Of a stretch of 64,000 nucleotides of DNA, positions 11,734-61,375 are shown one piece after another. The notes beneath the pieces are model-generated. The model had not been told where the DNA came from, did no database searches, and saw nothing but the letters and a program-made list of their open reading frames with translations. Source of the DNA: Terasakiella sp. SH-1 (lineage in GTDB: Bacteria > Pseudomonadota > Alphaproteobacteria > Rhodospirillales > Terasakiellaceae); assembly GCF_004564135.1 (NCBI RefSeq), contig NZ_CP038255.1:3459501-3523500 (forward strand), read 5' to 3'. The position numbers and the translations under genes are program-made. The number at the start of each line of letters is the position of its first letter. Positions within the stretch are counted from its first letter, which is position 1.

Positions 11734-12491
11734 TCTGTCGTTTTAATATAGGTAATATCAGTTACCTAAAATCGATTTGGTTCCAGAACATCAAATTGTC
11801 GATCAAGTGTATTATCAACAACAATAGACGGTTTTCCACCATATTGACCAGGACGACGTTTATATCCGATCTGAGCACAAATTCCTGCCAGACGAGTCAG
11901 GCGTGCGACACGGTTAGGACTGATGCATTCGCCTAATTCTCACAGGTCATCGTGTAATTTACGATAGCCATAAACCTTGCCACTCTCTTCCCAAGCCTGT
12001 TTGATGAGTTCAGTTTGGCGTTGGTCTTCAAGGGCTCTATTGCTGAGTGGTGATTTTAGCCACGCATAAAATCCGCTTGGATGAACTCGCAATATACGGC
12101 ACATGCTTCGGATCATAAAATCAGAACGATGCACCTTCATAAAGGCGTACTTCACTTGGCATCTTTTGCGAAGAACGCCGTGGCCTTTTTTAAGATGTCT
12201 CACTCCTCGGTGACACGGGCCAACTCTTTCTTTTAGCGACTGATCTCGGCAGATTGTTCCATAACTTCTTGGGCAACAGCTGGCAATTTAGAAAACCGCT
12301 TACGCCATTGATAAAGCGAATGTGTGCTGACACCTAAACGCCGGGAAACTTCTGCGACTGAATAGCCCCGTTCCGTAATCTGCTATACAGCATCAATTTT
12401 AAATTCATCGGTGAAATAGGATTTGGATATTGAATAACTCCTTGCCTCATTTTGTAACCGACAAGGTGTCTAGAAATCTAGGGGCTATTCA
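11734..12491 (-). mobile_element. Truncated IS3-family element, copy 1
   Basis: Nearly identical to the right part of the element at 57759-58986. Its outer end reads TGAATAGCCCCTAGATTTC inward from 12491. OrfA (about 12152-12430) reads as SKSYFTDEFKIDAV...YSVAEV, but its start codon position is ATA and it has internal stops. One of these (TAG after DAV) is unique to this copy. OrfB begins at the A-rich slippage site (KKATAFFAK to RCQVKYAFMKVHRSDF) and runs to a TAG in place of Trp after EPNRF. Homology ends at about 11734, so the catalytic core is lost. Confidence 0.82.
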
Positions 12492-45563: not shown

Positions 45564-46308
45564 GGACTGGTACAGAAAAATTGGTGTGTGTCTCACTCAC
45601 TTAGGAAGCCCTTCTCTCAAATTTAATCGGGCTGAGGCCCTTCAGGTATGAAGGGCGACGGTGAGCATTGTAAAACCCATTTATGTATTTGAACAATTCC
45701 TTTTTGGCCTGATCGCGTGTTTGGAAGGCAATTTTCCAAATTATTTCCGCTTTCAAGGTTTTGAAGAAGGTTTCCACAACGGCATTATCGTAACAATTTT
45801 CTTTGCCAGACATCGACTGTTTGAACTTGTATTTTCCAGCATTTTACGGAATTTGTTTGAGCAATATTGGCTGCCATGATCTGAATGGAAGATTACGTCA
45901 AGCAAAATAGCGATTTTGTGAAACGCTTATCACACGGCAGAGTCCTGTAATGCTGTGGTTTTCGCGGTGTTGTTGGACAAACTGGAATTTCACGGTTTTT
46001 GGCTCGCAAAGTACCGGACTGCCTTTTTTAAGATGTCCCTCTCCTCCCGCAGTTCATAAATCTCGCGGCGTAGTAGGGACAATTTCTTTTAAACCTCATC
46101 ATTTGGCTCTGCCGTTTCTTCTTTACGATATTGAGAAACCCAACGGTTCAAACTGCCGACACTAACACCAAAATCGGCAACAACAACTTTACGCAGTTGG
46201 TTGCTGCTTAAAGCAATGCGGGCTGCTTCTTCTCTAAATACAGGGGGCGTTTGCGACTCATTATATTCTCCTGTAGTCTGTATAATTTACTCAGGAGACA
46301 CGTTCCAC
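45564..46308 (-). mobile_element. Decayed IS3-family element, internally deleted
   Basis: The right part encodes an OrfA whose N-terminus is frameshifted within the first ten codons. It then reads ARIALSSNQLRKVVVADFGV and SLNRWVSQYRKEETAE, has an internal stop, and continues LREERDILKKAVRYFA. The left part encodes the OrfB C-terminus: IFHSDHGSQYCSNKFRKML, then after a frameshift SGKENCYDNAVVETFFKTLK and the end INGFYNAHRRPSYLKGLSPI (stop at 45601). Most of the OrfB N-terminal half is deleted. It is a different IS3 subgroup from the two copies at 11.7 and 57.8 kb. Confidence 0.78.
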
Positions 46309-46450: not shown

Positions 46451-47455
46451 ATGAACGCTAAGAAAATTCTTGTTACAGGTGCAGATGGTTTTATTGGTTC
46501 ACATTTAACTGAATTACTTATTAGCCAAGGGCATGACGTACGCGCATTGTGCTACTATAACTCATTTGGTCAATTTGGTTGGCTTGACCAATGTGCCCCA
46601 AATATAAAGAAACAGTTTGAACCTATTTTAGGTGATATTCGTGATCCTGTTTTAGTACGAAATGCCGTTAAAGGGTGTGATGTAGTATTACACTTAGCTG
46701 CCCTCATTGGTATCCCCTACTCATATGTGGCACCAAATTCATATATTGACACAAATATATCAGGCACCTTGAATGTATTACAGGCTGTTCGAGATTACGA
46801 TGTAGGGCGTATGGTACATACCTCAACGAGTGAGGTTTATGGCACGGCTCAATTTGTCCCAATTACTGAAGAACACCCCTTAGTTGGCCAATCACCTTAT
46901 TCGGCTTCTAAAATCGGAGCCGATCAATTAGCTATATCATATTATCGGTCTTTTCAAACGCCCGTTACAATTATGCGCCCATTTAACACCTATGGTCCAC
47001 GTCAATCAGCTCGTGCAGTGATTCCAACAATCATTTCTCAAATTTTGGATAATGATGGGCCAATTAGATTAGGCTCTCTTACTCCAACAAGAGATTTTAA
47101 TTTTGTTAAAGATATTGCACGAGGTTTTATCGAAATGGGGTTAAGTTCTAAAGCTGCTGGTGATGTTATCAACTTTAGTTCAAACTTTGAAATATCCATT
47201 AAGCAACTTATTGAAACTATAAAAACCATTACTGGTAAGGAAGTTGAAATTATTGCAGACAATGATCGTATACGCCCAAAAGATAGTGAAGTGGAACGGT
47301 TATGGGGCTGTAATAAGAAGGCTGAAGAAATTATTGGCTGGAAACCAGAATATAGTGGCCTTGCTGGTTTCCAAAAAGGAATTGAAGAAACAATTGAATG
47401 GTTCTCTGATCCCCAAAATCAAAAAACATATAAATCAGATCATTATAATATATAA
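46451..47455 (+). CDS. legB: UDP-GlcNAc 4,6-dehydratase, legionaminic-type (LegB)
   Basis: The 334-residue extended SDR has ILVTGADGFIGSHLTELLIS, HTSTSEVYGTAQFVPI and the active site YSASK (Tyr150/Lys154), with MRPFNTYGPRQSARAVIP and RDFNFVKD in the second half. It matches the LegB-type NAD-dependent epimerase/dehydratases found next to LegC aminotransferases. The reaction forms the 4-keto-6-deoxy sugar nucleotide that LegC aminates. It is the first gene after the IS3 remnant, 12 bases ahead of legC, and starts an eleven-gene plus-strand series reaching 57197. Confidence 0.88.
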   Translation: MNAKKILVTGADGFIGSHLTELLISQGHDVRALCYYNSFGQFGWLDQCAPNIKKQFEPILGDIRDPVLVRNAVKGCDVVLHLAALIGIPYSYVAPNSYIDTNISGTLNVLQAVRDYDVGRMVHTSTSEVYGTAQFVPITEEHPLVGQSPYSASKIGADQLAISYYRSFQTPVTIMRPFNTYGPRQSARAVIPTIISQILDNDGPIRLGSLTPTRDFNFVKDIARGFIEMGLSSKAAGDVINFSSNFEISIKQLIETIKTITGKEVEIIADNDRIRPKDSEVERLWGCNKKAEEIIGWKPEYSGLAGFQKGIEETIEWFSDPQNQKTYKSDHYNI

Positions 47456-47467
47456 CAAGCAATAATA

Positions 47468-48649
47468 ATGTCTAATCTACCTGCTTCCATACTTAATGCC
47501 TTAAGAACGGTTCTTCCAAACCCTGATACTTTTTATCCGTTACACGAACCAGAATTTTCGCTTGAAACGTGGAACTTGCTAAAAGAGTGCCTTGATAGTG
47601 GTTGGGTAAGTTCAGTTGGTAAATATGTGGATCAATTTGAAGAACAATTTTGTGATATAACTGGAGCGCAATATGCTATTGCTACAACGAATGGCACTGC
47701 AGCTCTTCATCTTGCTCTTCATCTTGCAAAAGTTCAGAGGGATGATGAAGTTATCACGCCAACGTTAACCTTTGTTGCAACTACAAATGCTATCTCTTAT
47801 TGTGGTGCAGTTCCCCATTTTGTTGATAGTGACCCTATAACTCTCGGAGTTTGCCCAGACAAATTATCTGACTATTTAAATCAAATTGCAGTAATGCGTA
47901 ATGGGATTTGCTATAATAAAAAAACAAATAGAAATATTACAGCACTAATGGTTGTCCATATCTTTGGAAGACCAGCACAAATTAAAAAGTTAAGAGTTTT
48001 GGCTGATAAATGGAACTTAGAACTTATTGAAGATGCTGCAGAAGCTTTAGGTTCAGAAGAGAGTAGTGTTTTTATTGGTTCTAATAGCAAGTTTGCTGCA
48101 TTTAGCTTTAATGGAAACAAGATCATTACGACTGGAGGTGGTGGTGTATTAGCAACAAGTGATTTTAGTGTTTGGAAAAGAGCTAAGCATTTATCTACGA
48201 CAGCAAAACAACAACATGCATGGGAATATTCACATGATGAGATTGGGTTTAATTATAGAATGCCAAATATTAATGCGGCAATGGGGTGTGCCCAACTTAA
48301 CTGTCTCAAAGATTTCTTAAATAGAAAACGTGAATTAAGCAATCATTATCTCAGCGCGTTTCAAAAAGTCAAAGGTATTCAATTTATACAGGAAGCGCCA
48401 AATACTAAAATTAATTATTGGCTTAATATATTACAGTTAAACAAACCTAACTTGGAGCTTCGTAATGAAATATTAGAAGTTACAAATAAAAGTAACATTA
48501 TGACACGACCAATTTGGAATTTAATGCATAATTTGCCAATGTATTCATCCTCACCCCGGATGCATGATTTAAGTACTGCTTCTAACCTTTTTGCTTCTAT
48601 TATTAACATTCCCTCTAGTCCAAGCCTCATATCCTCAAGACTAAATTAA
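47468..48649 (+). CDS. legC: PLP-dependent aminotransferase, LegC type
   Basis: The 393-residue DegT/DnrJ/EryC1-type aminotransferase has SSVGKYVDQFEEQFCDITGA, ATTNGTAALHLALHLA, LIEDAAEALGS, and the PLP-binding Lys218 in FSFNGNKIITTGGGG. It opens with the ILNALRTVLP motif and ends in NIPSSP, like LegC proteins. It transfers an amino group to C4 of the keto sugar from LegB. Normally LegH (an N-acetyltransferase) would follow; none is here. A 90-base gap with weak dyad symmetry separates it from the next gene. Confidence 0.87.
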   Translation: MSNLPASILNALRTVLPNPDTFYPLHEPEFSLETWNLLKECLDSGWVSSVGKYVDQFEEQFCDITGAQYAIATTNGTAALHLALHLAKVQRDDEVITPTLTFVATTNAISYCGAVPHFVDSDPITLGVCPDKLSDYLNQIAVMRNGICYNKKTNRNITALMVVHIFGRPAQIKKLRVLADKWNLELIEDAAEALGSEESSVFIGSNSKFAAFSFNGNKIITTGGGGVLATSDFSVWKRAKHLSTTAKQQHAWEYSHDEIGFNYRMPNINAAMGCAQLNCLKDFLNRKRELSNHYLSAFQKVKGIQFIQEAPNTKINYWLNILQLNKPNLELRNEILEVTNKSNIMTRPIWNLMHNLPMYSSSPRMHDLSTASNLFASIINIPSSPSLISSRLN

Positions 48650-48740: not shown

Positions 48741-49565
48741 ATGATAAATTGTTTTAATGAAGCGTTAGTTGAAGCCTATAATTCGCGTAAGAAAGAGTAT
48801 TTTGCAAAAATAGGCTCCCCCCTTTCCTCAGAAAACCCTAAAGTTAATAATGTCGTTAGCACCTTAAAACGAGATGGTCTTTGCGTTATTGAAAATTATT
48901 TCGATCATAACGAGGCATTGTCATTAGGGGAAATGTTAGATACATGGCTTGACGATTTAAAAAATGAAAAAAAAATATGGGAAGAAACAATTCATCATTT
49001 TGATGATATTGGTCTGACCCGACTTTTGAATGCGCACAAAATTGAAGGTAACATAAAAAGTTTCTTTGAAGATCCTTTTATTTATGAAGTGGCGAAAACA
49101 TATGCTTGTGAAACAATTGAATCTCGACAAAAAATGTTAGAACGCCGTAAACCAATCAATAAGCATGGACCTGCAGACGATTATCATGTGGATGAAGGTT
49201 ATTACCACAAGTTTAAAGCTTTTTTATATTTGACAGATGTGTCTGAAAGCACTGCTCCTTTTGATTATTATATAGGTTCTCATGAAGATGCTTCATGGCG
49301 TATCCCCAAAGAAATTCAAATGCATGCTTGGGAAACCTATGGCAATGAAGCAACCTTTGGTTGGCGCGGGAACTGCTTTGATAGTCGTGAAATGGATGAA
49401 ATTATCAAACAAAATAATTACGAACATAAAATATGCACCGCTAAGGCAGGTACTCTTATTTTTGTCGATACCAGAGGCATTCATAAGGCAACAACACCAC
49501 AAACAGGTGGACGTTTAATGTTAGGAAATTATTTCGAAGTTTCGAGAAAAAAGTTATTTTCTTAG
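48741..49565 (+). CDS. Phytanoyl-CoA dioxygenase-like Fe(II)/2-oxoglutarate enzyme (first)
   Basis: The 274-residue PhyH-family protein has an iron-binding facial triad: His149 and Asp151 in YHVDEGYYHKFKAFLYLTDV, and His248 in DTRGIHKATTPQTGG, with Arg258 positioned to bind 2-oxoglutarate. Such enzymes hydroxylate small molecules, carrier-bound amino acids or sugars. In this cluster the likely substrate is an amino acid, acyl group or sugar of the same glycan. A tetraloop terminator directly follows, so expression may drop after this gene. Confidence 0.77.
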   Translation: MINCFNEALVEAYNSRKKEYFAKIGSPLSSENPKVNNVVSTLKRDGLCVIENYFDHNEALSLGEMLDTWLDDLKNEKKIWEETIHHFDDIGLTRLLNAHKIEGNIKSFFEDPFIYEVAKTYACETIESRQKMLERRKPINKHGPADDYHVDEGYYHKFKAFLYLTDVSESTAPFDYYIGSHEDASWRIPKEIQMHAWETYGNEATFGWRGNCFDSREMDEIIKQNNYEHKICTAKAGTLIFVDTRGIHKATTPQTGGRLMLGNYFEVSRKKLFS

Positions 49566-49587
49566 CATCTTAATTATAAAAACTATT

Positions 49588-49612
49588 ATGGAGCTTCGGC
49601 TCCATTTTATTT
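49588..49612 (+). terminator. UUCG-loop hairpin, probable terminator or attenuator
   Basis: ATGGAGC-TTCG-GCTCCAT is a perfect seven-base stem with the very stable UUCG loop, followed by TTTATTTT. It sits in the 60-base gap inside an otherwise collinear gene series, so it may reduce rather than end transcription. Confidence 0.72.
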
Positions 49613-49625
49613 TGGAATATTTATA

Positions 49626-50384
49626 ATGTTTTCTAGTAATTTTAGTTACGCGTTTTATGAAACCATATTACAATACTGTCAAACTAAGGGAGAAATTATC
49701 CCTTTGCATAAATTCGATCTGGGTAGCGTAGATCGTAAGACATTTGTTTGGCGACATGATATTGATATTGACTTGAGGGCTGCCGTTAAAATGGCAGAGG
49801 TGGAAGCTAAACTCGGTATTAAATCTACTTATATGGTTATTCCTGACTCACCGATTTATGATATTAGTTCCCAAGAAAACAAGTCATATATAAATGAACT
49901 TCAAGCGTTAGGGCATGAAGTCGCATTACACTTTGATATTGTTACTGCTGGCGTTACAGATCTCAAAAATAATGAACAATTAGAACAATGCATTCAACGT
50001 GATATGGATAAAATTTCATCAATCACAAATAATCGTGTTTTATCAATTTCTTTCCATCGTCCAATTCAATCTTTCTTACATGGGCCTAGTCATATATGTG
50101 GTTGTGTTAATGCATATGCTGCAGAACTTATGGATTTTTATATTTCTGATTCAAAAGGAAATTGGCGTTCAGGTAACCCATTAGAAAGATTGAAGAAATT
50201 TGATGGTTTACTTGGACAAACATTAACCCATCCGATTTGGTGGTCAGATAAACATTGTTCTCCAGATCTTTCTTTAGAACATTTTTTTCAATACCGTACA
50301 TGTGATATGTCTTCTTCACAGGTATCAAATTTTGATAGCCTTCTTAGAGAGACAATTCCTGCTGTCAAACGTCAAGGCTTATAA
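49626..50384 (+). CDS. Polysaccharide-deacetylase-like protein
   Basis: The 252-residue protein has FVWRHDIDIDLRAAVKMAEV, where His-Asp-x-Asp begins a (beta/alpha) barrel, then ALGHEVALHFDIV and SISFHRPIQSFLHG, resembling the NodB/WbmS-type deacetylase fold with a divergent metal site. It lacks a signal peptide, so it would act on a cytoplasmic substrate, perhaps a nucleotide sugar or acyl intermediate. It is the fourth gene of the legB-legC series. The deacetylase activity itself is inferred. Confidence 0.6.
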   Translation: MFSSNFSYAFYETILQYCQTKGEIIPLHKFDLGSVDRKTFVWRHDIDIDLRAAVKMAEVEAKLGIKSTYMVIPDSPIYDISSQENKSYINELQALGHEVALHFDIVTAGVTDLKNNEQLEQCIQRDMDKISSITNNRVLSISFHRPIQSFLHGPSHICGCVNAYAAELMDFYISDSKGNWRSGNPLERLKKFDGLLGQTLTHPIWWSDKHCSPDLSLEHFFQYRTCDMSSSQVSNFDSLLRETIPAVKRQGL

Positions 50385-50397
50385 TAAAGGAAAAACC

Positions 50398-51174
50398 ATG
50401 AAAATTGGGAAACTTGATACCCATTCCGAGTCTTTAAAAAATCGAGTTGATTTACAGAAAAAGCTAAGTTCTTTTGACTTGAACGAATGGATTTTTCAAT
50501 ATCTCTCTCCTTATGCAGGAGCAACATGCCTTGATTTAGGCTGTGGTAGAGGAAACCAAACTCTGGAGATTGCAAAAACCATAGGTGAAAATGGTCATAT
50601 CACTTCTATTGATTTGTCAAAAGAATCCTTGCAAGCTCTTGAAAAAAGCGCACGTGAACAAGAGACTTTAACTCGTATACACACAATCAATAGTGAATTA
50701 GATAATATTGATAAATACTTAGAAAACAAAAAATTTGACCGCGTAGTTGGGAGCTATTCTTTATATTATGTTCGAAACGCAGAGCATATGTTTAAGACTA
50801 TTCATCAACATCTTAATGATGGTGGGCGTTTTTTCTACTGTGGTCCTTCTCATGAAAATAATATTGAGCTTCGTAATATCATTGCAAGCGTCACGCAAGA
50901 TAAAAACGTTCTTGAACCAACCGTCGCTTCTAAATTTATGGAAATGGAGAGTCAAATAATTGTCAAAAGTTTATTTAAGAATGTGGAACTCTTTACTTTC
51001 AAAAATGAAGTAACCTTTCCATGTATAGAAAGCATTAATACTTATTGGAAAAGTCATAATTTATATAACAAAGAATTTGATGATAAATTCCAAAGGTTGG
51101 TAGCTGAATATTTTGATAGAAATGGACAATTCATCAATGTTAAACGTGGTATTGGTGTTCTCGCAATAAAGTAA
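50398..51174 (+). CDS. Class I SAM-dependent methyltransferase
   Basis: The 258-residue enzyme has ATCLDLGCGRGNQTLEIAKT as SAM motif I, TSIDLSKESLQALE as motif II and GSYSLYYVRNAEHMF as motif IV. It begins 13 bases after the deacetylase-like gene behind an AAAGGA site; a longer frame from 50302 would overlap that gene and is rejected. The acceptor is unknown. In context it may methylate an amino or hydroxyl group of the acyl unit or sugar made by this cluster. Confidence 0.75.
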   Translation: MKIGKLDTHSESLKNRVDLQKKLSSFDLNEWIFQYLSPYAGATCLDLGCGRGNQTLEIAKTIGENGHITSIDLSKESLQALEKSAREQETLTRIHTINSELDNIDKYLENKKFDRVVGSYSLYYVRNAEHMFKTIHQHLNDGGRFFYCGPSHENNIELRNIIASVTQDKNVLEPTVASKFMEMESQIIVKSLFKNVELFTFKNEVTFPCIESINTYWKSHNLYNKEFDDKFQRLVAEYFDRNGQFINVKRGIGVLAIK

Positions 51175-51238
51175 TCTTAATCTGACGATTTCTAATTTAC
51201 AGTCCCAAAAGAGCAAGTTCGTTCAAGGTAATATAGTT

Positions 51239-52039
51239 ATGCTTAAACTCACAAATAAAGAAATTGTACAACATGTCCAAAACCTCGAGATTTTAGGCTA
51301 TACGGTTTTAGAAAATTATTTGCCTGATAATGTGGTCCTGAAAATGCGAAAAAAACTGGAACAGCAGAGAGCACTTAATAAAGACAGACATTATCCAGGC
51401 TACTCAGAATTACGAAGTAAGGACGAGCAAGTTTTTAACCTTCAAAATAAAGATGTTGATTTCCTACGTTTATTATCAGATTCAAATATAGAAAATATCT
51501 TAATGAAACGTATCAATGATGAATATTATCCGGCGCTAGAAGATAATCATCCAAACTATATTCTTGGTGAGTTTATCGCACGTAAAAGTGGAGACCCCCT
51601 GCGGCTTCATATTGATTCATGGATGCCTTCAACAGGTAATCATTGCTGGATGATGCAAGTGGTTTTTGCATTGCATGATCGTAACGAGGAAGATGGCTGT
51701 ACAACATTAGTTCCTGGTAGCCATCGCATTGGTGATTACACTGATCGTGAATTCCCGAATGTTGTTAAAGTGCCAATTAAAGCTGGTGATGTGGTGATGT
51801 GGGATAGTCGTTTGTGGCATGGGGCTTTGGCAAATATAAGTGATCAGGATAAATGGGTCTTAATTGCAACTATTCAACGTTGGTGGGTCAAGCAACGTTT
51901 TGATATTCCAAATGCTATTCCCAAAAATATTCTTAAAAAACTCACTGATAGAGAAAAAATCTTGTTGGGCTTTGCCTCAAGGCCGCCACTAACAGAATTT
52001 GACGGCACTAATGCACGTGGTGGCTATGAGGCCTTGTGA
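51239..52039 (+). CDS. Phytanoyl-CoA dioxygenase-like Fe(II)/2-oxoglutarate enzyme (second)
   Basis: The 266-residue PhyH protein has the triad His124-Asp126 in RLHIDSWMP and His194 in VVMWDSRLWHGALANI, plus the supporting CTTLVPGSHRIGDY block. It is only distantly like the enzyme at 48741-49565, so two different hydroxylations or a desaturation are possible. It directly precedes the radical SAM aminomutase-like gene by 59 bases. A hydroxylated amino-acid product is an attractive inference. Confidence 0.8.
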   Translation: MLKLTNKEIVQHVQNLEILGYTVLENYLPDNVVLKMRKKLEQQRALNKDRHYPGYSELRSKDEQVFNLQNKDVDFLRLLSDSNIENILMKRINDEYYPALEDNHPNYILGEFIARKSGDPLRLHIDSWMPSTGNHCWMMQVVFALHDRNEEDGCTTLVPGSHRIGDYTDREFPNVVKVPIKAGDVVMWDSRLWHGALANISDQDKWVLIATIQRWWVKQRFDIPNAIPKNILKKLTDREKILLGFASRPPLTEFDGTNARGGYEAL

Positions 52040-52098
52040 TTCCCTAAAAAATCCACTACATCTCATGTAATAATTGAAAGAATTCTAAAGGAATAATT

Positions 52099-53244
52099 AT
52101 GGCTGGAGCTAAAGGTGGGGAGTTTAAAGAACTTCTGTCTCCATTTTTGAAAGAAAAGTTAGAACGAGCCAAATGGGATTTCGGTGAAGACAGCAAGGAA
52201 GTCTTTGCTATTACACATCAGTATTTGAGAAGTCCTTTAGAAAATTTAATTCAATCACATGAACGTCGCCGCCATTATGAAGCGGAAATGGAAATTGAGT
52301 TTGAAGGGCAAAGCCTTATTGGTGTTGAGCGTCTATATCGTCGAACTATTCTCATCGAACCAACAACCGTTTGCGCTGCTCATTGCCGTTGGTGTCTTCG
52401 TGGTCAGTACCCTGTTAAGACAATGACGCAGGATGATATTGTTCATGCTGCAAGATATATCGGTAGTCCCCAAAACAAACAAGATATTGATGAAGTGTTG
52501 ATTACTGGTGGTGATCCGTTAATGTCACAAAAATTGTTAAGTTTTACCCTCCAGGCTTTAACAGATCATGCTCCTAATGTGATTAATGTACGTATTGGTT
52601 CCCGTGTTCCGTTTCAGGACCCTAAGAGGATCAACGATGGCCTGATTGCTATTTTTAAGGAATTTAGCCAGTTTAACTTTGAAATCGGCATTAATGTTAA
52701 TCATCCAATTGAATTTTGGCCAGAGTCTGTTTCTGCGATCAAGAAACTTCAATCTATCGGCGTTACATTTTACAATCAACACCCGCTCTTAAAAGGGGTT
52801 AATGATGACATTGAGACTTTAATAGAACTGTATTCCCTTTTACGTAAACATCGTATTGAGGCGCATTATTTCTTTCATGCTATTCCAATGCGTGGCATGC
52901 AACACCATCGGACATCTTTGCGCAAAGGTTTAGCACTAGCTAATCAGCTTTCATCTTGCGGACAATTTTCGGGGCGAGCTAAACCAAGATATGCTGTTTT
53001 GAGTGATATTGGGAAAATTGTTATTTATCAAGATACAATCGTCGATGAGCACACTGAGGACAATAAACTCTTATTACGCTCTGGCTTTAAATTAGAAGAC
53101 CGCCAACGTTGGAATCCTAGTTGGCAAAAACCCGATTCTGTTGTTCTCGCAAATGATGGAACAATGATGACTTGGTATCAAGATGGTACAGATAAAACAC
53201 TGACTGAATTATCGATAGAGCTTGCACAAAATATAAATTTGTAG
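52099..53244 (+). CDS. KamA-family radical SAM aminomutase-like enzyme
   Basis: The 381-residue protein has the 4Fe-4S Cys triad Cys92-x3-Cys96-x2-Cys99 in TVCAAHCRWCLRGQYPVK, with Arg101 at the carboxylate-binding position of lysine 2,3-aminomutase. It has LITGGDPLMS and a probable PLP-binding Lys (about 295) in SGRAKPRYAVLSDIGKI. KamA enzymes move an alpha-amino group to the beta carbon. The two Asp residues that hold the lysine side-chain amine appear absent (FHAIPMRGMQHHR at the first site), so the substrate is probably not lysine. It heads a compact aminomutase, acyltransferase, adenylation enzyme and carrier protein set. Confidence 0.82.
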   Translation: MAGAKGGEFKELLSPFLKEKLERAKWDFGEDSKEVFAITHQYLRSPLENLIQSHERRRHYEAEMEIEFEGQSLIGVERLYRRTILIEPTTVCAAHCRWCLRGQYPVKTMTQDDIVHAARYIGSPQNKQDIDEVLITGGDPLMSQKLLSFTLQALTDHAPNVINVRIGSRVPFQDPKRINDGLIAIFKEFSQFNFEIGINVNHPIEFWPESVSAIKKLQSIGVTFYNQHPLLKGVNDDIETLIELYSLLRKHRIEAHYFFHAIPMRGMQHHRTSLRKGLALANQLSSCGQFSGRAKPRYAVLSDIGKIVIYQDTIVDEHTEDNKLLLRSGFKLEDRQRWNPSWQKPDSVVLANDGTMMTWYQDGTDKTLTELSIELAQNINL

Positions 53245-53256
53245 AGAGTATAAAGC

Positions 53257-54069
53257 ATGGCGAAAAAAAAATGGTCTCTTTCTGATTTAAAAAATGTTTT
53301 AGAATATTTCGGCATTCAATCTGGCGATACCTTGTTGGTTCATTCTTCTCTCTTACACATCGGAAAACCAGACGGCGTTAATATGACAGAATATCCTAAA
53401 CAGACCATTCAATTGTTTAGAGATTATCTTGGTCCTACAGGTACATTTTGCGTACCCTCTGCTTTCTTTAAGTATGGCTCTAAGTCTGAGCCTTTTAATC
53501 TCCAAGACTCTCCCGTTGAACGTTTACTAGGTGTGTTACCAAATGTTTTTTTAAATGAAAAAGGATGCCACCGCTCCTCTAACCCTTTCTTTAGTGTGGC
53601 AGCAGTCGGGAAGTATGCATCAGAAATTTGTGATAATCATATAGGCTCTCCATTTGGTCAAGGCTCCCCATGGGCAACGATGTATGACCTAAATGCGAAA
53701 ATGTTATTTTTAGGATGCGGGCTTGAAGCAATGACTTTCACTCGTTTTGTCGAAACTCATTTTGGTGTTCCTTACCTCTACAATAAATTATTTAACACGC
53801 CTGTAATTAATTCTGGTGAAAGACTAGATGTTACAATTACAGCTCCTCTTCGCTATCGGCACTTAGACAGTACTTATGATATGTCGACTTTCCATAGGTC
53901 TGTCGAGCAATCAGGTTTTTTGAAAAAAGTAGAAATTGGAAAAGGCTTTGCATATTATTGGGATATGCAAACAGCCTATGATATTTGCTCAGATGCTTTG
54001 AGAAAAGACATTCACTGTTTTCTTAAGGCAGTACCAAATTATGATCAGCAACAACTCCCACTAACGTAG
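53257..54069 (+). CDS. AAC(3)-fold N-acyltransferase
   Basis: The 270-residue protein belongs to the Antibiotic_NAT/AAC(3) family: SGDTLLVHSSLLHIG near residue 25, GTFCVPSAFFKYG, HRSSNPFFSVAAVG (family RSxHP), SPFGQGSPW and FVETHFGVPYLY. Relatives in surface-glycan loci acylate amino sugars with acetyl-CoA or carrier-bound acyl groups rather than inactivate antibiotics. Placed between an aminomutase and an adenylation/carrier pair, it is the best candidate for moving the activated acyl group onto a sugar amine. No drug-resistance role should be assumed. Confidence 0.78.
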   Translation: MAKKKWSLSDLKNVLEYFGIQSGDTLLVHSSLLHIGKPDGVNMTEYPKQTIQLFRDYLGPTGTFCVPSAFFKYGSKSEPFNLQDSPVERLLGVLPNVFLNEKGCHRSSNPFFSVAAVGKYASEICDNHIGSPFGQGSPWATMYDLNAKMLFLGCGLEAMTFTRFVETHFGVPYLYNKLFNTPVINSGERLDVTITAPLRYRHLDSTYDMSTFHRSVEQSGFLKKVEIGKGFAYYWDMQTAYDICSDALRKDIHCFLKAVPNYDQQQLPLT

Positions 54070-54078
54070 ATTTCGAAC

Positions 54079-55641
54079 ATGCTTTTACAACAAGACTTCT
54101 TTGAAAAAACGGTTGAGCAATTTCCAGACAATATTGCGGTGGATGATCATGGTGATCAAATCACCTATTTGGGCTTAGACGGAAATTCTAACCAATTAGC
54201 ACACCTTTTAAAGAAATTAGGTTGTGCTGCTAATGATAGAGTCTGCATATTTACTGAGAAATCGATAAAAGCTTACACAGCAATTTTAGCGACTTTAAAG
54301 GCAGGTGGATGTTGGGTGCCGTTAAATAAGGCATTCCCAACTGAGCGAATTAAATTTCTATTTCAAACATTGAAACCCTGCGCCGTTATTTGTGATAGTG
54401 CTTCTGTTAAAATTACAGAAGCACTAAAAAGAGAGCTAAAGGCTGAATGGGATATTGTCTATATAGATGAACAAGACATTGATGATCCAGATGATAGTAC
54501 TCTATCTATAAAAGATTATATTAACTTACCCGCTGAGCGACCATCACGTGCTGAAATTAATAATAATGACTTAGCCTATATTATTTTCACCTCAGGTTCT
54601 ACAGGTGAGCCCAAAGGGGTTATGGTTCGACATAGTAATACGGTTCTATTTCTGTCTGAATGTCAAAAATTCTTTCAAGTTCAACCTAAAAGTCGTTTTG
54701 CCCATTTTTCGGACTTAACGTTTGATCCGTCAGTTTTTGATATGTTTTATTGCTGGGCAAGTGCAGGTACATTGGTACCAATGAATAAAAGAGAGTATAA
54801 GATTAATCCTTCTTTGTTTCTCCTTTCTCAGAACATCAACGTTTTATTTACTGTACCTTCTGTTATTTTACAGCTCCAAAATCAGGGAAAGTTGTCCGAC
54901 CAAGCATTAAAAACACTCAAACATCTTCTTTTAACAGGTGAGGCAGTTCCTGCTCCGTTATTGTGTGCATGGTATGACGAACACCCTGACAGCCAAGTTT
55001 ATAATATGTATGGAACGACTGAAACGGCTATCATATCTCATTGGTATAAAGTTCCCTCATATATTAAAGCAGGTGATGAAGTTGCTGTTGGTTATCCAAT
55101 GCCAACCATTCGAGTTATGCTAATGGATGATGGTAAAATTGTTGAGAATGGTCAAATAGGGGAGAGTGTTATCTGCGGAGGCCAATTATCCCCTGGTTAT
55201 TGGGCAAATGACCAGCAAACCGATACCGTTTTTTCTAGTTATCCAGATCATCCCGACCTTCCTATTAGGGTCTATAAAACAGGTGATTTATTGCGTAAAG
55301 ATGAGAATGATTTATACTATTATGTAGGGCGACGGGATAATCAGGTTAAAGTTCGCGGTAACCGTGTAGAGCTTGGTGAAGTTGAGCGACATATTATTAA
55401 TTTTGAAGGTGTTCAAAATGCATGTGTTGTGCCTATTGGGGAAAGCCATGAAAAACGCTTATATGCATATGTGCATTGTGATGAGATGGTAACAAAGAAA
55501 CAATTAAAACGTCATTTGATACAGTCTATACCTGCATTTATGATTCCTTCCCATTTTCACCTTCAAAATAAATCATTACCACTCAATGCGAATGGTAAGA
55601 TTGATCGCAAAGAATTAATCGCACAAGTGACAGAAACATGA
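54079..55641 (+). CDS. Stand-alone amino-acid adenylation enzyme (NRPS A-domain type)
   Basis: The 520-residue protein is a full adenylation domain with the core motifs in order: LAYIIFTSGSTGEPKGV (about 166-181), FDPSVFDMF with Asp216 at the amine-binding position, NMYGTTETA, YKTGDLL, GRRDNQVKVRGNRVELGEVE and the C-terminal LPLNANGKIDRKEL with its catalytic Lys. It would activate an amino acid as AMP ester and load the carrier encoded next. The retained Asp favours an amino-acid substrate. It is not fused to condensation or thioesterase domains, like DltA-type ligases. Confidence 0.85.
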   Translation: MLLQQDFFEKTVEQFPDNIAVDDHGDQITYLGLDGNSNQLAHLLKKLGCAANDRVCIFTEKSIKAYTAILATLKAGGCWVPLNKAFPTERIKFLFQTLKPCAVICDSASVKITEALKRELKAEWDIVYIDEQDIDDPDDSTLSIKDYINLPAERPSRAEINNNDLAYIIFTSGSTGEPKGVMVRHSNTVLFLSECQKFFQVQPKSRFAHFSDLTFDPSVFDMFYCWASAGTLVPMNKREYKINPSLFLLSQNINVLFTVPSVILQLQNQGKLSDQALKTLKHLLLTGEAVPAPLLCAWYDEHPDSQVYNMYGTTETAIISHWYKVPSYIKAGDEVAVGYPMPTIRVMLMDDGKIVENGQIGESVICGGQLSPGYWANDQQTDTVFSSYPDHPDLPIRVYKTGDLLRKDENDLYYYVGRRDNQVKVRGNRVELGEVERHIINFEGVQNACVVPIGESHEKRLYAYVHCDEMVTKKQLKRHLIQSIPAFMIPSHFHLQNKSLPLNANGKIDRKELIAQVTET

Positions 55642-55663
55642 ACGCGTTTTAGGAATTATTACA

Positions 55664-55900
55664 ATGAATGAGATCGGAAAAATTATTCGAGAATGTCTTA
55701 TCGAAGCATTGGAATTGAATGAACATTCATTACCAACTGAGATTTCAGTTGAAACGGTTGAAACATGGGACTCGTTAGCACACTTGAATCTAATAGATTT
55801 ACTTGAAGAACGTTTCGATATTTCAATCGAAAATGTAATTGCCCCGACATTATTAAATGAAAAAGAGATTATTCAAGCTATCAAAAAAACTCTAGGATAA
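55664..55900 (+). CDS. Acyl/peptidyl carrier protein
   Basis: The 78-residue acidic four-helix protein has the phosphopantetheine attachment Ser37 in ETWDSLAHLNLIDLLEE. It carries the acyl group loaded by the adenylation enzyme 22 bases upstream. It begins behind a TTAGGAATT ribosome site and is followed by one base before the next start. Such dedicated carriers are seen in D-alanylation and in O-antigen acylation systems. Confidence 0.87.
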   Translation: MNEIGKIIRECLIEALELNEHSLPTEISVETVETWDSLAHLNLIDLLEERFDISIENVIAPTLLNEKEIIQAIKKTLG

Positions 55901-55901
55901 A

Positions 55902-57197
55902 ATGTCAAACGCCCAAAAAAAATCCATTGAGCTAGCTTCTTATCTGGATCGCCTTTTTCCTATTCTGAGAAGTATAACAGGCAATGGTGTGCGAGAAACG
56001 TTCTTAATACTTTCTGAGATCATCCCTTATGATGTTCTTGAGTTCCCCTCAGGAACCAAAGTATTTGATTGGGAAATTCCACCAGAATGGAATGTTGAAA
56101 AAGCGCAGATTAAAGATGATCTGGGTAATGTTCTTGTTGACGTGGATGATCACCCTTTACATATATTGAATTATTCAATCCCTTTTAGTGGTACGGTCTC
56201 TCTAAACGAATTACAGGACCATTTATATAGTTTACCTGAACGCCCAGAAGCTATTCCGTATGTTAGTAGCTATTATAAAGAGCGATGGGGGATGTGCGTT
56301 TCAGAACAGCAAAGGCAAGCTCTTAAACCGGGAAATTACCGTGTAGATATTCAAACATCACTTGATCCTAATGGCTCATTATCTATAGCTGAATATGTTA
56401 TTCCTGGTCGCTCAAAAAAGGAAATCCTTTTTACCGCTTATAGTTGCCACCCAGGGATGGGAAATGATGAGATGGGTGGAATGATTGCTCTTACCCTATT
56501 AGCGGATCGTCTTCTTAAGAAGAAAAATTTTTATACTTATCGTTTCTTATTACACCCAGAAACCATTGGTTCCATTTCCTATCTCGCGCATAGAGGAAAA
56601 GAATTAAAACAAAACCTTCATGCAGGACACGTTATTGCTAATATATGTTGGGAACAACCCTTTAATGCCAAACGAAGTAGGTGTGGTGGAAAGGTGGACC
56701 AAATTCTTGAGTATGTTTTAAAGCATGAGCGCTATGAACAGGGAGTTTTAAACGATTTTTCACCATTAGCTTCAGATGAACGACAATATTGTTCACCTGG
56801 TTTTAACCTCCCTGTTTGCTCAATCTGGCGGGGAGATCCTTATTTCCAAGAATATCATTCTTCTCTTGATTCAAAAGAAAAGATATCAACTGATGCCATA
56901 TGGGAAACTGTCGATTTTTTCGAGGAAATCTGTAGCTCTCATGAAATGAATTTAACTTATCAAAATCTTTTCCCCGATTGTGAACCGCAGTTAGGAAAAA
57001 GGGGGCTATATCCTACAATCGGTGCTTCAAGTAGACGTACTCAAGAACTTGAAGCACTCCTATGGGTCTTAAATTTATCTGATGGTAATCATGATTTGCT
57101 TCAAATAGCAAAAAAAAGTGCAACCTCATTAAAAATTATCAGTGAAGCTGCACAGAAATGTGAGCAGGCCGGCCTCTTAGTATCTATTTGCAAATAA
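55902..57197 (+). CDS. DUF4910/DUF2172 aminopeptidase-like protein
   Basis: The 431-residue protein has a zinc-peptidase-like core: YSCHPGMGNDEMGGMIALTL with His and Asp ligands, a FLLHPETIGSISYLA block, and a later QEYHSSLD with a further His, plus a C-terminal winged-helix segment (HDLLQIAKKSATSLKIISEA). It matches the DUF4910/DUF2172 family that I recall from surface-glycan clusters. Peptidase or deacylase activity on an amino-acid-bearing glycan or carrier intermediate is plausible but unproven. It ends the eleven-gene series just before an IS cluster. Confidence 0.75.
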   Translation: MSNAQKKSIELASYLDRLFPILRSITGNGVRETFLILSEIIPYDVLEFPSGTKVFDWEIPPEWNVEKAQIKDDLGNVLVDVDDHPLHILNYSIPFSGTVSLNELQDHLYSLPERPEAIPYVSSYYKERWGMCVSEQQRQALKPGNYRVDIQTSLDPNGSLSIAEYVIPGRSKKEILFTAYSCHPGMGNDEMGGMIALTLLADRLLKKKNFYTYRFLLHPETIGSISYLAHRGKELKQNLHAGHVIANICWEQPFNAKRSRCGGKVDQILEYVLKHERYEQGVLNDFSPLASDERQYCSPGFNLPVCSIWRGDPYFQEYHSSLDSKEKISTDAIWETVDFFEEICSSHEMNLTYQNLFPDCEPQLGKRGLYPTIGASSRRTQELEALLWVLNLSDGNHDLLQIAKKSATSLKIISEAAQKCEQAGLLVSICK

Positions 57198-57758: not shown

Positions 57759-58698
57759 TGAATAGCTCCTATTTCCCTAGACGCCTTGATCTCTCTTTTT
57801 TGCTGTCGTTCGAATTCATTTGGTGACAGCATTTCGTTCCTAGCATGCTTGCGTTTTGGATTGTAGAACATTTCAATATAGTCAAATACATCCTGCCTTA
57901 CATCCGCTCTGGTTTTGTAGACCTTGCGCCTGATGCGTTCACGTTTAAGCAGGTTAAAGAAGCTTTCCGCAACAGCGTTGTCATGACAATTACCGCGACG
58001 GCTCATAGAATGTTCCAAGTTATGAGATTTCAGAAACGAAGCCCATTCAATGCTGGTAAATTGTGAGCCCTGATCGGAATGTATGACGACTTTATTTTTA
58101 GGTTTTCGCCGCCACACAGCCATTAATAAAGCCTGCAAGGCGAGTTCTGTCAGTTGCCTGCTTTGCATAGACCAACCAACAACTTTTCTGGAATAAAGGT
58201 CAATAACAACCGCTAAATATGAATATCCTTCTGTCGTTTTAATATAGGTAATATCAGTTACCCAAAATCGATTTGGTTCCAGAACATCAAATTGTCGATC
58301 AAGTGTATTATCAACAACAATAGACGGTTTTCCTCCATATTGGCCAGGGCGACGTTTATATCCGATCTGAGTAAAATTCCTGCCAGATGAGCTAAACGTG
58401 CGACACGATTGGGGCTTATGAATTCGCCTAATTCGCACAGATCATCATGTAACTTACGATAACCATAGACCTTGCCACTCTCTTCCCAAGCCTGCTTGAT
58501 AAGCTCCGTTTGACGTTGGTCTTCAAGGGCTCTTTTGCTGAGCGGTGATTTCAACCACGCATAAAACCCGCTTGGATGAACTTGCAATATACGGCACATG
58601 CTTCGGATCATAAAATCAGAACGATGCACCTTCATAAAGGCGTACTTCACTTGGCATCTTTTGCGAAGAACGCCGTGGCCTTTTTTAAGATGTCTCAC
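57746..58698 (-). pseudogene. IS3-family OrfB transposase (copy 2), frameshifted
   Basis: The first part starts after the A-rich slippage site and reads KYAFMKVHRSDFMIRSMCRI to YRKLHDDLCELGEFISPNRV. A one-base deletion near 58370 (relative to copy 1, which keeps that base) breaks the frame. The rest carries the DDE catalytic core: FWVTDITYIKTTEGYSYLAV, VIHSDQGSQFTSIEWASFL and NCHDNAVAESFFNLLK with the conserved Glu. The frame runs past the element's left end and stops at 57746 in flanking DNA. Confidence 0.82.
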
Positions 58699-58986
58699 TC
58701 CTCGGTGACACGGGCCAACTCTTTCTTTTAGCGACTGATCTCGGCAGATTGTTCCATAACTTCTTGGGCAACAGCTGGCAATTTAGAAAACCGCTTACGC
58801 CATTGATAAAGCGAATGTGTGCTGACACCTAAACGCTGGGAAACTTCTGCGACTGAATAGCCCCGTTCCGTAATCTGTTTTACAGCATCAATTTTAAATT
58901 CATCGGTGAAATAGGATTTGGATATTGAATAACTCCTTGCCTCATTTTGTAACCGACAAGGTGTCTAGAAATCTAGGGGCTATTCA
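57759..58986 (-). mobile_element. IS3-family insertion sequence, copy 2, near full length
   Basis: Length is 1228 bp. The imperfect terminal repeats are TGAATAGCTCCTATTTCCCT (left, from 57759) and TGAATAGCCCCTAGATTTCT (right, inward from 58986). It contains OrfA and OrfB in the usual overlapping frames. No matching target duplication flanks it: IS51-like debris lies to the left, IS481 debris to the right. It shares several disabling lesions with copy 1 at 11734-12491. Confidence 0.85.
58647..58925 (-). pseudogene. IS3-family OrfA (copy 2) with dead start and internal stops
   Basis: The frame is 92 codons and reads SKSYFTDEFKIDAVKQITER, GYSVAEVSQRLGVSTHSLYQ and LPAVAQEVMEQSAEIS. The codon where ATG is expected is ATA, and two in-frame stops interrupt it (after AEISR and after VTEE). 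It then reads DILKKATAFFAKDAK across the A6G slippage site. The same defects are present in copy 1. Confidence 0.8.
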
Positions 58987-59609: not shown

Positions 59610-60302
59610 CTACTCCATCCCCTTAAATATAGTTCCTGCCTCCTGTTCATTCATTAACAAATCAATAATGGCCATATATGGAATAAATTCAGCCCCAGTA
59701 ACTTGTTGATAAGTTGGGTGGATATAATCTTGAAATTTTACTTCAATATTCTCTCTTTCAAATGAAGGAAGATCAAGATAGTTACGTCCAAGAGACCCCG
59801 AAAGGTAAGAAGTTGCAGAAAGTGACTTGCAGATATCAAGTACTAGATCGCTTTTTTGACTATCAAAAAAACCGAGTTCAGAGGATTTGATTATTTGTGT
59901 CGTAATTCCGAGTTTGTGACAATAGTAAGTTAACATCTCAAAGCATATGTCGCTAAGAGTTCTAAATTCTTTCTGATAAAACTCAGAAATTTCAGGAAAA
60001 ATTTCCTTATAGCAAATTGCCTTTTTATAGTTTAGCCGAATTGAATTCAGGTGTTTTTTTTGCCACTTTTGTTTTGAATCGATTTCAATTTCTTTTAAAG
60101 ACAGTTCAAATAATTTTCCTTTGGTTAAGACTGGTATACTTAACCATAAAGGGCCATTTGCGGTTAAAATTTTATTTCGATTCTGAAAACTGTTTTTCTG
60201 AAATTGAACAGTATCTAAATACACAAAAATATCACTCTGGATAATCTTGTCCATATAACCAAGCCAAGGAAGATAAGCTGGCTGATGAATACTGATTTTC
60301 AT
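59610..60302 (-). CDS. WbqC-family protein
   Basis: The 230-residue protein begins ISIHQPAYLPWLGYMDKI with SDIFVYLDTVQFQKNSFQNR, the hallmark of the WbqC family, and ends with a GAEFIPYMAIIDLLMNEQ helix. WbqC proteins occur in O-antigen loci and have been tied to amino-sugar acylation, but the reaction is not established. It lies immediately downstream (14 bases) of the second NeuB-type synthase on the same strand, suggesting a role in the same sugar. Confidence 0.85.
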   Translation of the reverse strand: MKISIHQPAYLPWLGYMDKIIQSDIFVYLDTVQFQKNSFQNRNKILTANGPLWLSIPVLTKGKLFELSLKEIEIDSKQKWQKKHLNSIRLNYKKAICYKEIFPEISEFYQKEFRTLSDICFEMLTYYCHKLGITTQIIKSSELGFFDSQKSDLVLDICKSLSATSYLSGSLGRNYLDLPSFERENIEVKFQDYIHPTYQQVTGAEFIPYMAIIDLLMNEQEAGTIFKGME

Positions 60303-60316
60303 ATAATGATGTTTCC

Positions 60317-61375
60317 TTAAGAAAAGTTCACATCAGACAATGAGATACCCTCATTTGCTCTTTTAGATACTTTTAGAATTGAACCTTCGATATTAGTCCA
60401 TTCTCCTAAAAAGGATCCCTTATCAGCACGTTTAAAACCAACATTCTTTTCACTTAAAACTGTGCCTGGTTCTAGGTTTATTTTGGCAACAATTCGGCGG
60501 CGCATAATTTTTTTACTTTTTAATTCTTCATCACTGGGCGTAATATAATTACTTCCCATTGCAGCTTCTGCAAAACGGATATCACGAACTAACTGAGACA
60601 TTTCCTGGGGGTCCATTGAGAACCAGTGGTCTGGACCAGCTAGGCTATGGTCCATAGTAAAGTGCTTTTCTATCACTCTAGCTCCCATTGTAACAGCTAA
60701 TGTAGAAGCAAGCGTACCTTGAGAGTGATCAGAGAAGCCCCAAATGATTTCTGGGTATATTTTTTTAAGTAGTGGAATTTGATTTAGATTCAGAAATGCT
60801 GGCCCTGCTGGATATATGGATACACAATGAAGTGCAATTATTTGAGACCAATGATCTTTTAATGCAGATAATGTATGATCTACTTCTGCAAGATTTGCCA
60901 TCCCCTTTGAAATGATTAAAGGTAAGCCCGTTTCCGCAAATTTCTTTAGATTTAGAATGTGATCAAAGTCGTCAGAGCCAACTTTAATAGCTTCAAGTCC
61001 AAGGGTCTGCATTAATTCTAAATTAACCATATCCTGGACAGTAGTCATAAAGAAAATATCTTTTTTCTCACATTCCTGAATAATCTGCGCCCACTCATCA
61101 GCTGTAAATTCAAAACGTTTAAACATTTCAAATTCACTTTCGGTAACTTCTTTACCTTGGGATTGATATGTAAATGTTTTTTCTTTATCAGCACAAAATT
61201 CTTCAGCAGAAAAAGTCTGAAACTTTACACAATCGCATCCAGCTTCTTTAGCGGCAGCAATAAGTTCAAATGCGAGAGAAAGGTCACCATTATGGTTGGC
61301 GCCAGCTTCTGCTATTACATATGCAGGTTGGTCATTCCCAACCAGACGATTACCTAATTGTACTGTATGGCCCAT
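60317..61375 (-). CDS. NeuB-family nonulosonic acid synthase, second copy
   Basis: The 352-residue protein has YVIAEAGANHNGDLSLAFEL, CVKFQTFSAEEF, KVGSDDFDHILNLKKFAETG, LHCVSIYPAG, GFSDHSQGTLAS and EKHFTMDHSLAGPDHWFS, then a C-terminal SAF domain (RRRIVAKINLEPGTVL). It differs widely from the synthase at 9617-10678 (for example KVGSDDF in place of KIPSGEI), so it may make a different nine-carbon acid. It is between a methylase of the pseudaminate type and wbqC. No second set of upstream pathway genes is visible here. Confidence 0.85.
   Translation of the reverse strand: MGHTVQLGNRLVGNDQPAYVIAEAGANHNGDLSLAFELIAAAKEAGCDCVKFQTFSAEEFCADKEKTFTYQSQGKEVTESEFEMFKRFEFTADEWAQIIQECEKKDIFFMTTVQDMVNLELMQTLGLEAIKVGSDDFDHILNLKKFAETGLPLIISKGMANLAEVDHTLSALKDHWSQIIALHCVSIYPAGPAFLNLNQIPLLKKIYPEIIWGFSDHSQGTLASTLAVTMGARVIEKHFTMDHSLAGPDHWFSMDPQEMSQLVRDIRFAEAAMGSNYITPSDEELKSKKIMRRRIVAKINLEPGTVLSEKNVGFKRADKGSFLGEWTNIEGSILKVSKRANEGISLSDVNFS

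Follow-up and report, generated by a model that had tools for sequence, protein, structure and literature searches.

Locus organization

The stretch analyzed here, referred to as the window, comprises 64,000 nucleotides (NZ_CP038255.1, positions 3,459,501–3,523,500) of the 3.83 Mb, single-contig genome of Terasakiella sp. SH-1. Nine collinear genes on the forward strand, at 48741–57197, directly follow legB and legC, and a sequence-only reading had proposed that they rearrange an amino acid to a beta form, activate it on a carrier protein and attach it to a legionaminic-type sugar of the cell surface. The layout on which that proposal was built, a collinear run with small gaps after legB-legC, is what we find: nine open reading frames with gaps of 60, 7, 64, 59, 12, 9, 22 and 1 bp in gene order, preceded by gaps of 12 bp (legB-legC) and 91 bp (legC-PhyH1). 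Family searches and motifs bear out every family assigned to the nine genes apart from the deacetylase, which is weakly supported (Table 1).

Table 1. Genes and features of the cassette and its surroundings (positions in the window; scores in bits with model cut-off where given)
Feature	Position	Strand	Basis and remarks
LegB, NAD-dependent 4,6-dehydratase	46451..47455	+	TIGR04180 497 bits, cut-off 475
LegC-family aminotransferase	47468..48649	+	TIGR04181 507 bits, cut-off 420
PhyH1, putative Fe/2-oxoglutarate dioxygenase, accessory	48741..49565	+	PF05721 24.6 bits, cut-off 22 (marginal)
Deacetylase-like protein, weak assignment, accessory	49626..50384	+	DUF2334 E 0.013, below cut-off
Class I S-adenosylmethionine (SAM) methyltransferase, accessory	50392..51174	+	PF13847 (Methyltransf_31) 66 bits
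PhyH2 dioxygenase	51239..52039	+	PF05721 82 bits; present in 3/4 cassettes, window included
KamA-like radical SAM/pyridoxal phosphate (PLP) aminomutase, separate clade	52099..53244	+	Radical_SAM over cut-off; aligned to PDB 2a5h
AAC(3)-fold N-acyltransferase, Arg-type clade	53257..54069	+	PF02522 125 bits
Stand-alone amino-acid adenylation enzyme (A-domain)	54079..55641	+	TIGR01733 332 bits, cut-off 317
Carrier protein	55664..55900	+	WDSL serine; acyl carrier protein models below cut-off
DUF4910 M28-like hydrolase, proposed sugar N-deacylase	55902..57197	+	PF16254 240 bits; DUF4910+DUF2172+HTH_47
Insertion element stretch	57759..58760	-	rve domains; between cassette and WbqC-NeuB
WbqC-family protein	59610..60302	-	PF08889 248 bits; near cassette also in L013, L017
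NeuB-type nonulosonic acid (NulO) synthase, probable cassette partner	60317..61375	-	PF03102 253 bits

A five-gene core recurs in differing surroundings

Genes of the KamA-like clade were found at nine loci outside the window (L013, L014, L015, L016, L017, L024, L025, L026 and L083), and the named hosts are alphaproteobacterial (Kiloniellales, Dongia, Rhodospirillum), one locus being placed only as Proteobacteria. The clade is rare: at E 1e-60 the counts are 4 among 317 genomes for the order, 2 among 385 for the class and 2 among 388 for the phylum, each of these three overlapping sets including the window genome. Six peptide patterns, which recover close relatives only, located it on four contigs of a species-representative collection. 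Plasmids yielded no KamA relative at E 1e-40, and the best A-domain identity among them is only 33% (four Pseudochrobactrum records). In the GC-rich loci, genes were taken from a composition-scored caller together with six-frame profile searches, the caller having missed a PIG-L gene in L017.

The predicted co-occurrence of KamA-like, AAC(3)-like, A-domain and carrier genes recurs in three of the nine outside loci (L013, L017 and L026). A DUF4910 gene lies on the same stretch in L017 and L026; in the L013 genome it is found near the start of a second contig, the first 99 bases of which repeat the final 99 of L013 exactly. These two contigs very probably adjoin, which would place DUF4910 one further gene past the carrier, and given this exact overlap the five-gene core of KamA-like, AAC(3)-like, A-domain, carrier and DUF4910 genes is present in all four AAC(3)-bearing KamA loci, the window included. 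Gene order differs among these four cassettes, with AAC(3) and DUF4910 in L026 divergent from the other core genes, and their GC content is 71% in L013, 66% in L017, 29% in L026 and 37% in the window. Because the core recurs in all three other loci across 29–71% GC, it is a real unit, beyond chance, and the DUF4910 gene is one of its members.

The set is not conserved as a whole. The five core genes are kept, and so is PhyH2 in two of the three outside cassettes (homologues 53% identical in L013 and 48% in L026, none in L017), while PhyH1, the deacetylase-like gene and the methyltransferase have no match in L013, L017 or L026.

Other arrangements also exist. An activating enzyme adjoins KamA in six of the nine outside loci. 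In L083 (genome G757) the A-domain, carrier and KamA genes stand in a row, the KamA protein being 46% identical to that of the window. In L024 and L025 the gene preceding KamA encodes an AMP-binding ligase of PaaK type (assigned by Pfam in L024 and closely similar by eye in L025), possibly a second route of activation for the same amino acid. A 373-residue protein without a family is encoded upstream of the KamA/ligase pair in both (L024:8729-12296 and L025:270-3825). The A-domain, carrier and KamA genes of L083 (5964-9171) lie near genes that by eye resemble flhA, flhG and fliA, which makes flagellin a possible target there. An acyltransferase common to L024 and L083 was considered and dropped, as the candidate proteins have no Pfam match and no similarity to each other.

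The KamA-like enzyme has lost a lysine-specifying residue

Eight clade members are 58–69% identical to the KamA-like protein of the window, against 29–35% for ten ordinary KamA relatives. Aligned to lysine 2,3-aminomutase (PDB: 2a5h), all nine clade rows keep the CxxxCxxC motif, the Arg that follows it and a Lys, the latter two being presumably the carboxylate-binding residue and the PLP lysine; the clade therefore has the hallmarks of the KamA superfamily. Two further residues, Asp293 and Asp330, are assumed here to bind the side-chain ammonium of lysine. The position of Asp293 is occupied by Ile in 9/9 clade rows and by Asp in all ten ordinary relatives compared, with Val in L083; the loop bearing Asp330 is two residues shorter in the clade, which leaves the position of that residue ambiguous. 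The two-Asp signature of lysine and arginine 2,3-aminomutases is thus broken. The replacement of the presumed lysine-specifying Asp293, with the iron-sulfur, carboxylate and PLP residues all kept, suggests a neutral amino acid as substrate.

The window protein falls below all listed KamA-family NCBIfam cut-offs, with its best score for glutamate 2,3-aminomutase (137 of 650 bits), followed by arginine (135 of 600) and lysine (120 of 525). The predicted pocket thus argues against lysine or arginine, and the model scores argue against glutamate. A lysine 2,3-aminomutase making beta-lysine was considered and is not favored, given the loss of Asp293.

The A-domain and carrier appear to handle an amino acid

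The stand-alone A-domain is of nonribosomal peptide synthetase type: in addition to its TIGR01733 score it carries an Asp235-type FDPSVF motif and the lysine of NGKIDR (NGK), which we take to be the amine-binding and catalytic residues, respectively; the DltA model gives 275 of 559.85 bits. The Asp is present in 5/5 KamA-linked copies (the four cassettes and L083), and the specificity positions are identical in all four cassettes save for one Ile/Val change. The ten-residue code derived by hand, D-P-F-F-L-T-M-I-I/V-K, is hydrophobic and resembles isoleucine-type codes, a likeness that we use as a lead only. Among A-domain-like proteins encoded in DUF4910 stretches without KamA, the Asp is kept in some (L044 and L062) and others have unrelated motifs. 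The carrier has no Pfam match and lies below the cut-off of all NCBIfam models (best 23 of 71 bits), with the serine of its DSL motif kept in the window protein and all three homologues.

DUF4910 and AAC(3) form a recurrent pair

The DUF4910 protein of the window can be aligned with PDB 3k9t along almost its entire length (E 8e-102), and the family was found in 26 of 385 genomes of the class and 29 of 398 of the phylum, the window genome included. Its neighborhoods were compared at 55 places, comprising every one detected other than those in the window and in genome G572, over about 17 kb each and less at contig ends. With our own profiles, AAC(3) was detected in 18 and NeuB in 18 of these 55 stretches (one AAC(3) match is weak, at 24 bits), and KamA in none. 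The curated AAC(3) family gave 42 matches in 30 of 51 DUF4910-bearing genomes, 18 of them within 8 kb of DUF4910, where even placement would lead one to expect well under one pair; part of this excess may come from a habitat in surface-sugar loci that both families share. With 18 of 42 matches linked and KamA in 0/55 stretches, DUF4910 and AAC(3) are a recurrent pair, of which the KamA cassette is a rare variant. Strict pairing of the two across KamA-bearing genomes was considered and dropped: the genomes of L024 and L025 (G154 and G207) have no DUF4910, and G757 has both genes on contigs other than that of KamA.

The acyltransferases of the cassettes stand apart from their relatives. At a position where 16 of the 18 AAC(3) proteins near other DUF4910 genes have His, and the remaining two Met, all four cassette proteins have Arg. 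Two entries for AAC(3)-IVa, 6mn5 and 6mn3, have Ala and His there, respectively, a difference that would fit mutation of what we assume to be the catalytic His. The four cassette proteins form one clade with support of 100/99 in a tree of 15 of 22 rows, the seven rows with a matched segment of fewer than 180 residues having been left out. Membership of the PF02522 family is clear, with no sign of a role as a resistance enzyme: the aminoglycoside 3-N-acetyltransferase model NF033082 gives 83 of 270 bits, and Arg replaces the usual His.

The sugar context is nonulosonic, but not strictly legionaminic

NulO genes lie beside the cassette in three of the four loci. The window has LegB and LegC over cut-off and a NeuB-family synthase, in keeping with a legionaminic pathway; L017 has PseB and PseC over cut-off with NeuB; and L013 has a PseB fragment, a PseG match at 149 of 153.55 bits and NeuB. 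A legionaminic-type sugar, as first supposed, agrees with LegB and LegC of the window, but not with the PseB and PseC of L017 or the PseB fragment of L013, and a reading restricted to legionaminic acid was given up as too narrow. NulO genes also adjoin KamA in L024, where LegB exceeds its cut-off, NeuB exceeds that of NeuB_NnaB, and a relative of LegC is present.

The NeuB of the window shares 64% identity with its L013 counterpart and no more than 43% with six other NeuB proteins compared, and it scores below both the NeuB_NnaB (317 of 400 bits) and PseI (221 of 340) cut-offs. A WbqC-family gene accompanies NeuB, adjacent or close by, in the window, L013 and L017. The window genome holds six NeuB-family matches in 3.8 Mb and may make several NulOs; four of the matches share a span of about 83 kb that lies partly inside the window and partly past it.

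A proposed route for acyl exchange

Taken together, these features make it somewhat more probable than not that the cassette produces a carrier-bound, neutral and probably beta-configured amino acid and exchanges it for an N-acyl group on a NulO or its nucleotide-sugar precursor. On this proposal LegB, LegC and NeuB would supply the sugar. Acting on a neutral L-amino acid, the KamA-like enzyme would shift its amino group from C2 to C3, the A-domain would convert the product to an adenylate and load it onto the carrier serine, and PhyH2, where present, might hydroxylate the amino acid in its free or carrier-bound form. DUF4910 would remove an existing N-acyl (N-acetyl) group from the sugar, and the AAC(3)-fold enzyme would pass the carrier-bound aminoacyl group on to the amine thus exposed. 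We infer all of these reactions, the identity of the amino acid, its beta position and the attachment site from conserved residues, gene linkage and analogy. The most specific form of the proposal, in which DUF4910 and the Arg-type AAC(3) swap onto a NulO a beta-amino acid made by a radical SAM aminomutase with a new class of substrate, is held tentatively, as slightly short of an even proposition.

The nearest precedent is from Campylobacter jejuni. We take Cj1295 of that organism to be a DUF4910 protein and Cj1296/7 to be AAC(3)-like, with an activating enzyme and a carrier presumably encoded nearby. In the available portion of the published account, Cj1295, described there as having an aminopeptidase-like domain, is needed for 5-(2,3-di-O-methylglyceroyl) pseudaminic acid (PMC3068675). 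Since a protein of the presumed DUF4910 family is needed for a different N5 acyl group, the module of the window may likewise swap acyl groups rather than merely add one, and because of the same precedent N5 appears as plausible an attachment site as N7 (C4 of the precursor).

Several observations weigh against this proposal. Because the cassette AAC(3) proteins do not have the usual His, ordinary AAC(3) chemistry cannot be assumed for them, and the step in which Cj1295 would remove the C5 acetyl group and so allow another acyl is itself, in the available portion of that study, its authors' hypothesis (PMC3068675). L026 has no NulO gene within 20 kb, the seven NeuB matches of its genome being on other contigs, and L083 has no AAC(3), DUF4910 or NeuB within 17.5 kb. 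The KamA genes of L014–L016 have no match to any other cassette gene nearby, G154 and G207 are without DUF4910, and G207, at 80% completeness, is also without NeuB. The interval between NeuB and WbqC in L017 gives a weak match to PseH (21 of 93 bits). The lineage with KamA alone, represented by L014–L016, is of Dongia/Rhodospirillum type.

Alternative explanations

The least unlikely alternative shares everything with the proposed exchange but the site and the requirement for deacylation: the AAC(3) protein would fill the slot of LegH or PseH by acylating the 4-amino group left by LegC or PseC (N7), and DUF4910 would edit the sugar separately. It draws on the window genome, which has LegB and LegC, yet stays below cut-off for a NeuD-type LegH (64 of 160.8 bits at best) and for PseH (30.8 of 93.1 bits). 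LegH and PseH are, however, diverse families, so their absence by two models says little; genome G040 encodes, away from the cluster, a NeuD that exceeds its cut-off, and within the cluster it gives a weak match to PseH, and DUF4910 is present in 4/4 cassettes. We consider this alternative unlikely, though less so than the two that follow.

A somewhat more doubtful possibility is that an ordinary alpha-amino or hydroxy acid is attached to the NulO and that the KamA-like enzyme has another role, such as shifting an amino group within the sugar or within a carrier-bound acyl group. The C. jejuni system, which attaches a glyceric acid derivative and for which the available portion of the source names no aminomutase (PMC3068675), is in its favor, as is the occurrence of KamA without the rest of the set in L014–L016. 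KamA nevertheless appears to track the activation step, since L083 keeps it with the A-domain and carrier only, in a stretch without AAC(3) or DUF4910, and all five KamA-linked A-domains have the presumed amine-binding Asp.

Least probable of all is a small beta-amino-acid metabolite or siderophore-like product with NulO neighbors only by way of a mobile island, for although the low GC and insertion elements mark an acquired region and the L026 and L083 stretches have no adjacent NulO genes, NulO genes stand beside KamA in L013, L017 and L024 despite differing gene order and surroundings, Pfam calls no condensation or thioesterase domain in the cassette, and elsewhere AAC(3) and DUF4910 lie close to one another and to NeuB.

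Relation to known systems and significance

The window combines a DUF4910 gene with one of AAC(3) type among NulO genes, and in this it appears to resemble the C. jejuni locus, in which the aminopeptidase-like Cj1295 is accompanied by the N-acetyltransferase gene Cj1296/7 (PMC3068675, available portion). The window cassette differs in its AAC(3) clade, with Arg for His, and in C. jejuni the group attached is a glyceric acid derivative, with no aminomutase or PhyH protein named in that portion of the study (PMC3068675). The KamA-like enzyme shares with KamA/AblA, EpmB and the arginine and glutamate aminomutases the radical SAM family, the CxxxCxxC motif, the carboxylate Arg and the PLP Lys, and differs from them in the loss of Asp293 and in its linkage to activation enzymes and NulO genes. 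D-alanylation by DltA-DltC likewise uses a stand-alone A-domain and a carrier to bring an amino acid to a surface polymer, but does so through the membrane proteins DltB and DltD, whereas the cassette would use an AAC(3)-fold acyltransferase and target a sugar amine.

O-antigens also provide cases of amino acids in amide linkage to deoxyamino sugars, such as N-acetylalanyl on Qui3N or Qui4N (PMC3210612, available portion). The groups described there differ, being alanyl and N-acetylglycyl on 6-deoxyhexosamines, and the examples in that portion include no beta-amino acid and no aminoacylated NulO (PMC3210612). Among the papers listed by searches of literature mostly outside subscription journals, none, by its title and the opening of its abstract, places an aminomutase in a NulO or O-antigen acylation pathway or describes this gene set; two of those listed are, in the excerpts, unrelated, one being an osmolyte study (PMC3694923) and the other a glutamate-1-semialdehyde 2,1-aminomutase annotation in a Legionella O-antigen locus (PMC11337218). 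The parts and the logic of decoration have precedent; what is new is the presence of the aminomutase, the AAC(3) of Arg type and the grouping of five genes into a unit.

If the proposed exchange is correct, beta-amino acids would widen the range of acyl groups on the sialic-acid-like sugars of bacteria, a clade of KamA enzymes would be defined by its new substrate, and the DUF4910-AAC(3) pair that recurs in many genomes would gain a biochemical frame. One might speculate that beta-amino acid amides on a surface sugar resist ordinary peptidases.

Acquired region and other observations

The cassette genes have a GC content of 32–40%, compared with 46–49% in two housekeeping stretches and 50–52% in three housekeeping genes of the genome. 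This low GC, together with insertion elements, indicates that the region was acquired. The element separating the cassette from WbqC-NeuB, which we take to be IS3-like and whose ends are approximate, has 1.0-kb copies 99.6% and 98.9% identical about 20 and 37 kb further on (L018 and L019) and a 94% identical partial copy at 11734-12265; the NulO island is rich in insertion elements and may be rearranging. The remnant of a transposase C-terminus (rve_2) lies at 45601-45813, just upstream of legB.

Two of the weaker proteins were also examined structurally. PhyH1 has no relative in the PDB, and the deacetylase-like protein, with no family over cut-off, gave an AlphaFold model too poor (predicted local distance difference test score, pLDDT, of 47) for a usable structural match. 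A relative 54% identical to the PIG-L deacetylase of the L013 cluster is encoded in the window genome some 14 kb past DUF4910, and L017 has a PIG-L gene as well (38–42% identical). WbqC-family genes occur repeatedly near NulO or DUF4910 genes (window 59610-60302, L013, L017, L044 and L067); the AlphaFold model of the protein (pLDDT 62) gave no usable Foldseek match (best E 0.011, template modeling score 0.22). Within the same island, L019:5946-8705 carries a WbuX-type amidotransferase over cut-off together with genes that by eye resemble HisF and HisH, a group that probably serves an amidino-type modification of another sugar.

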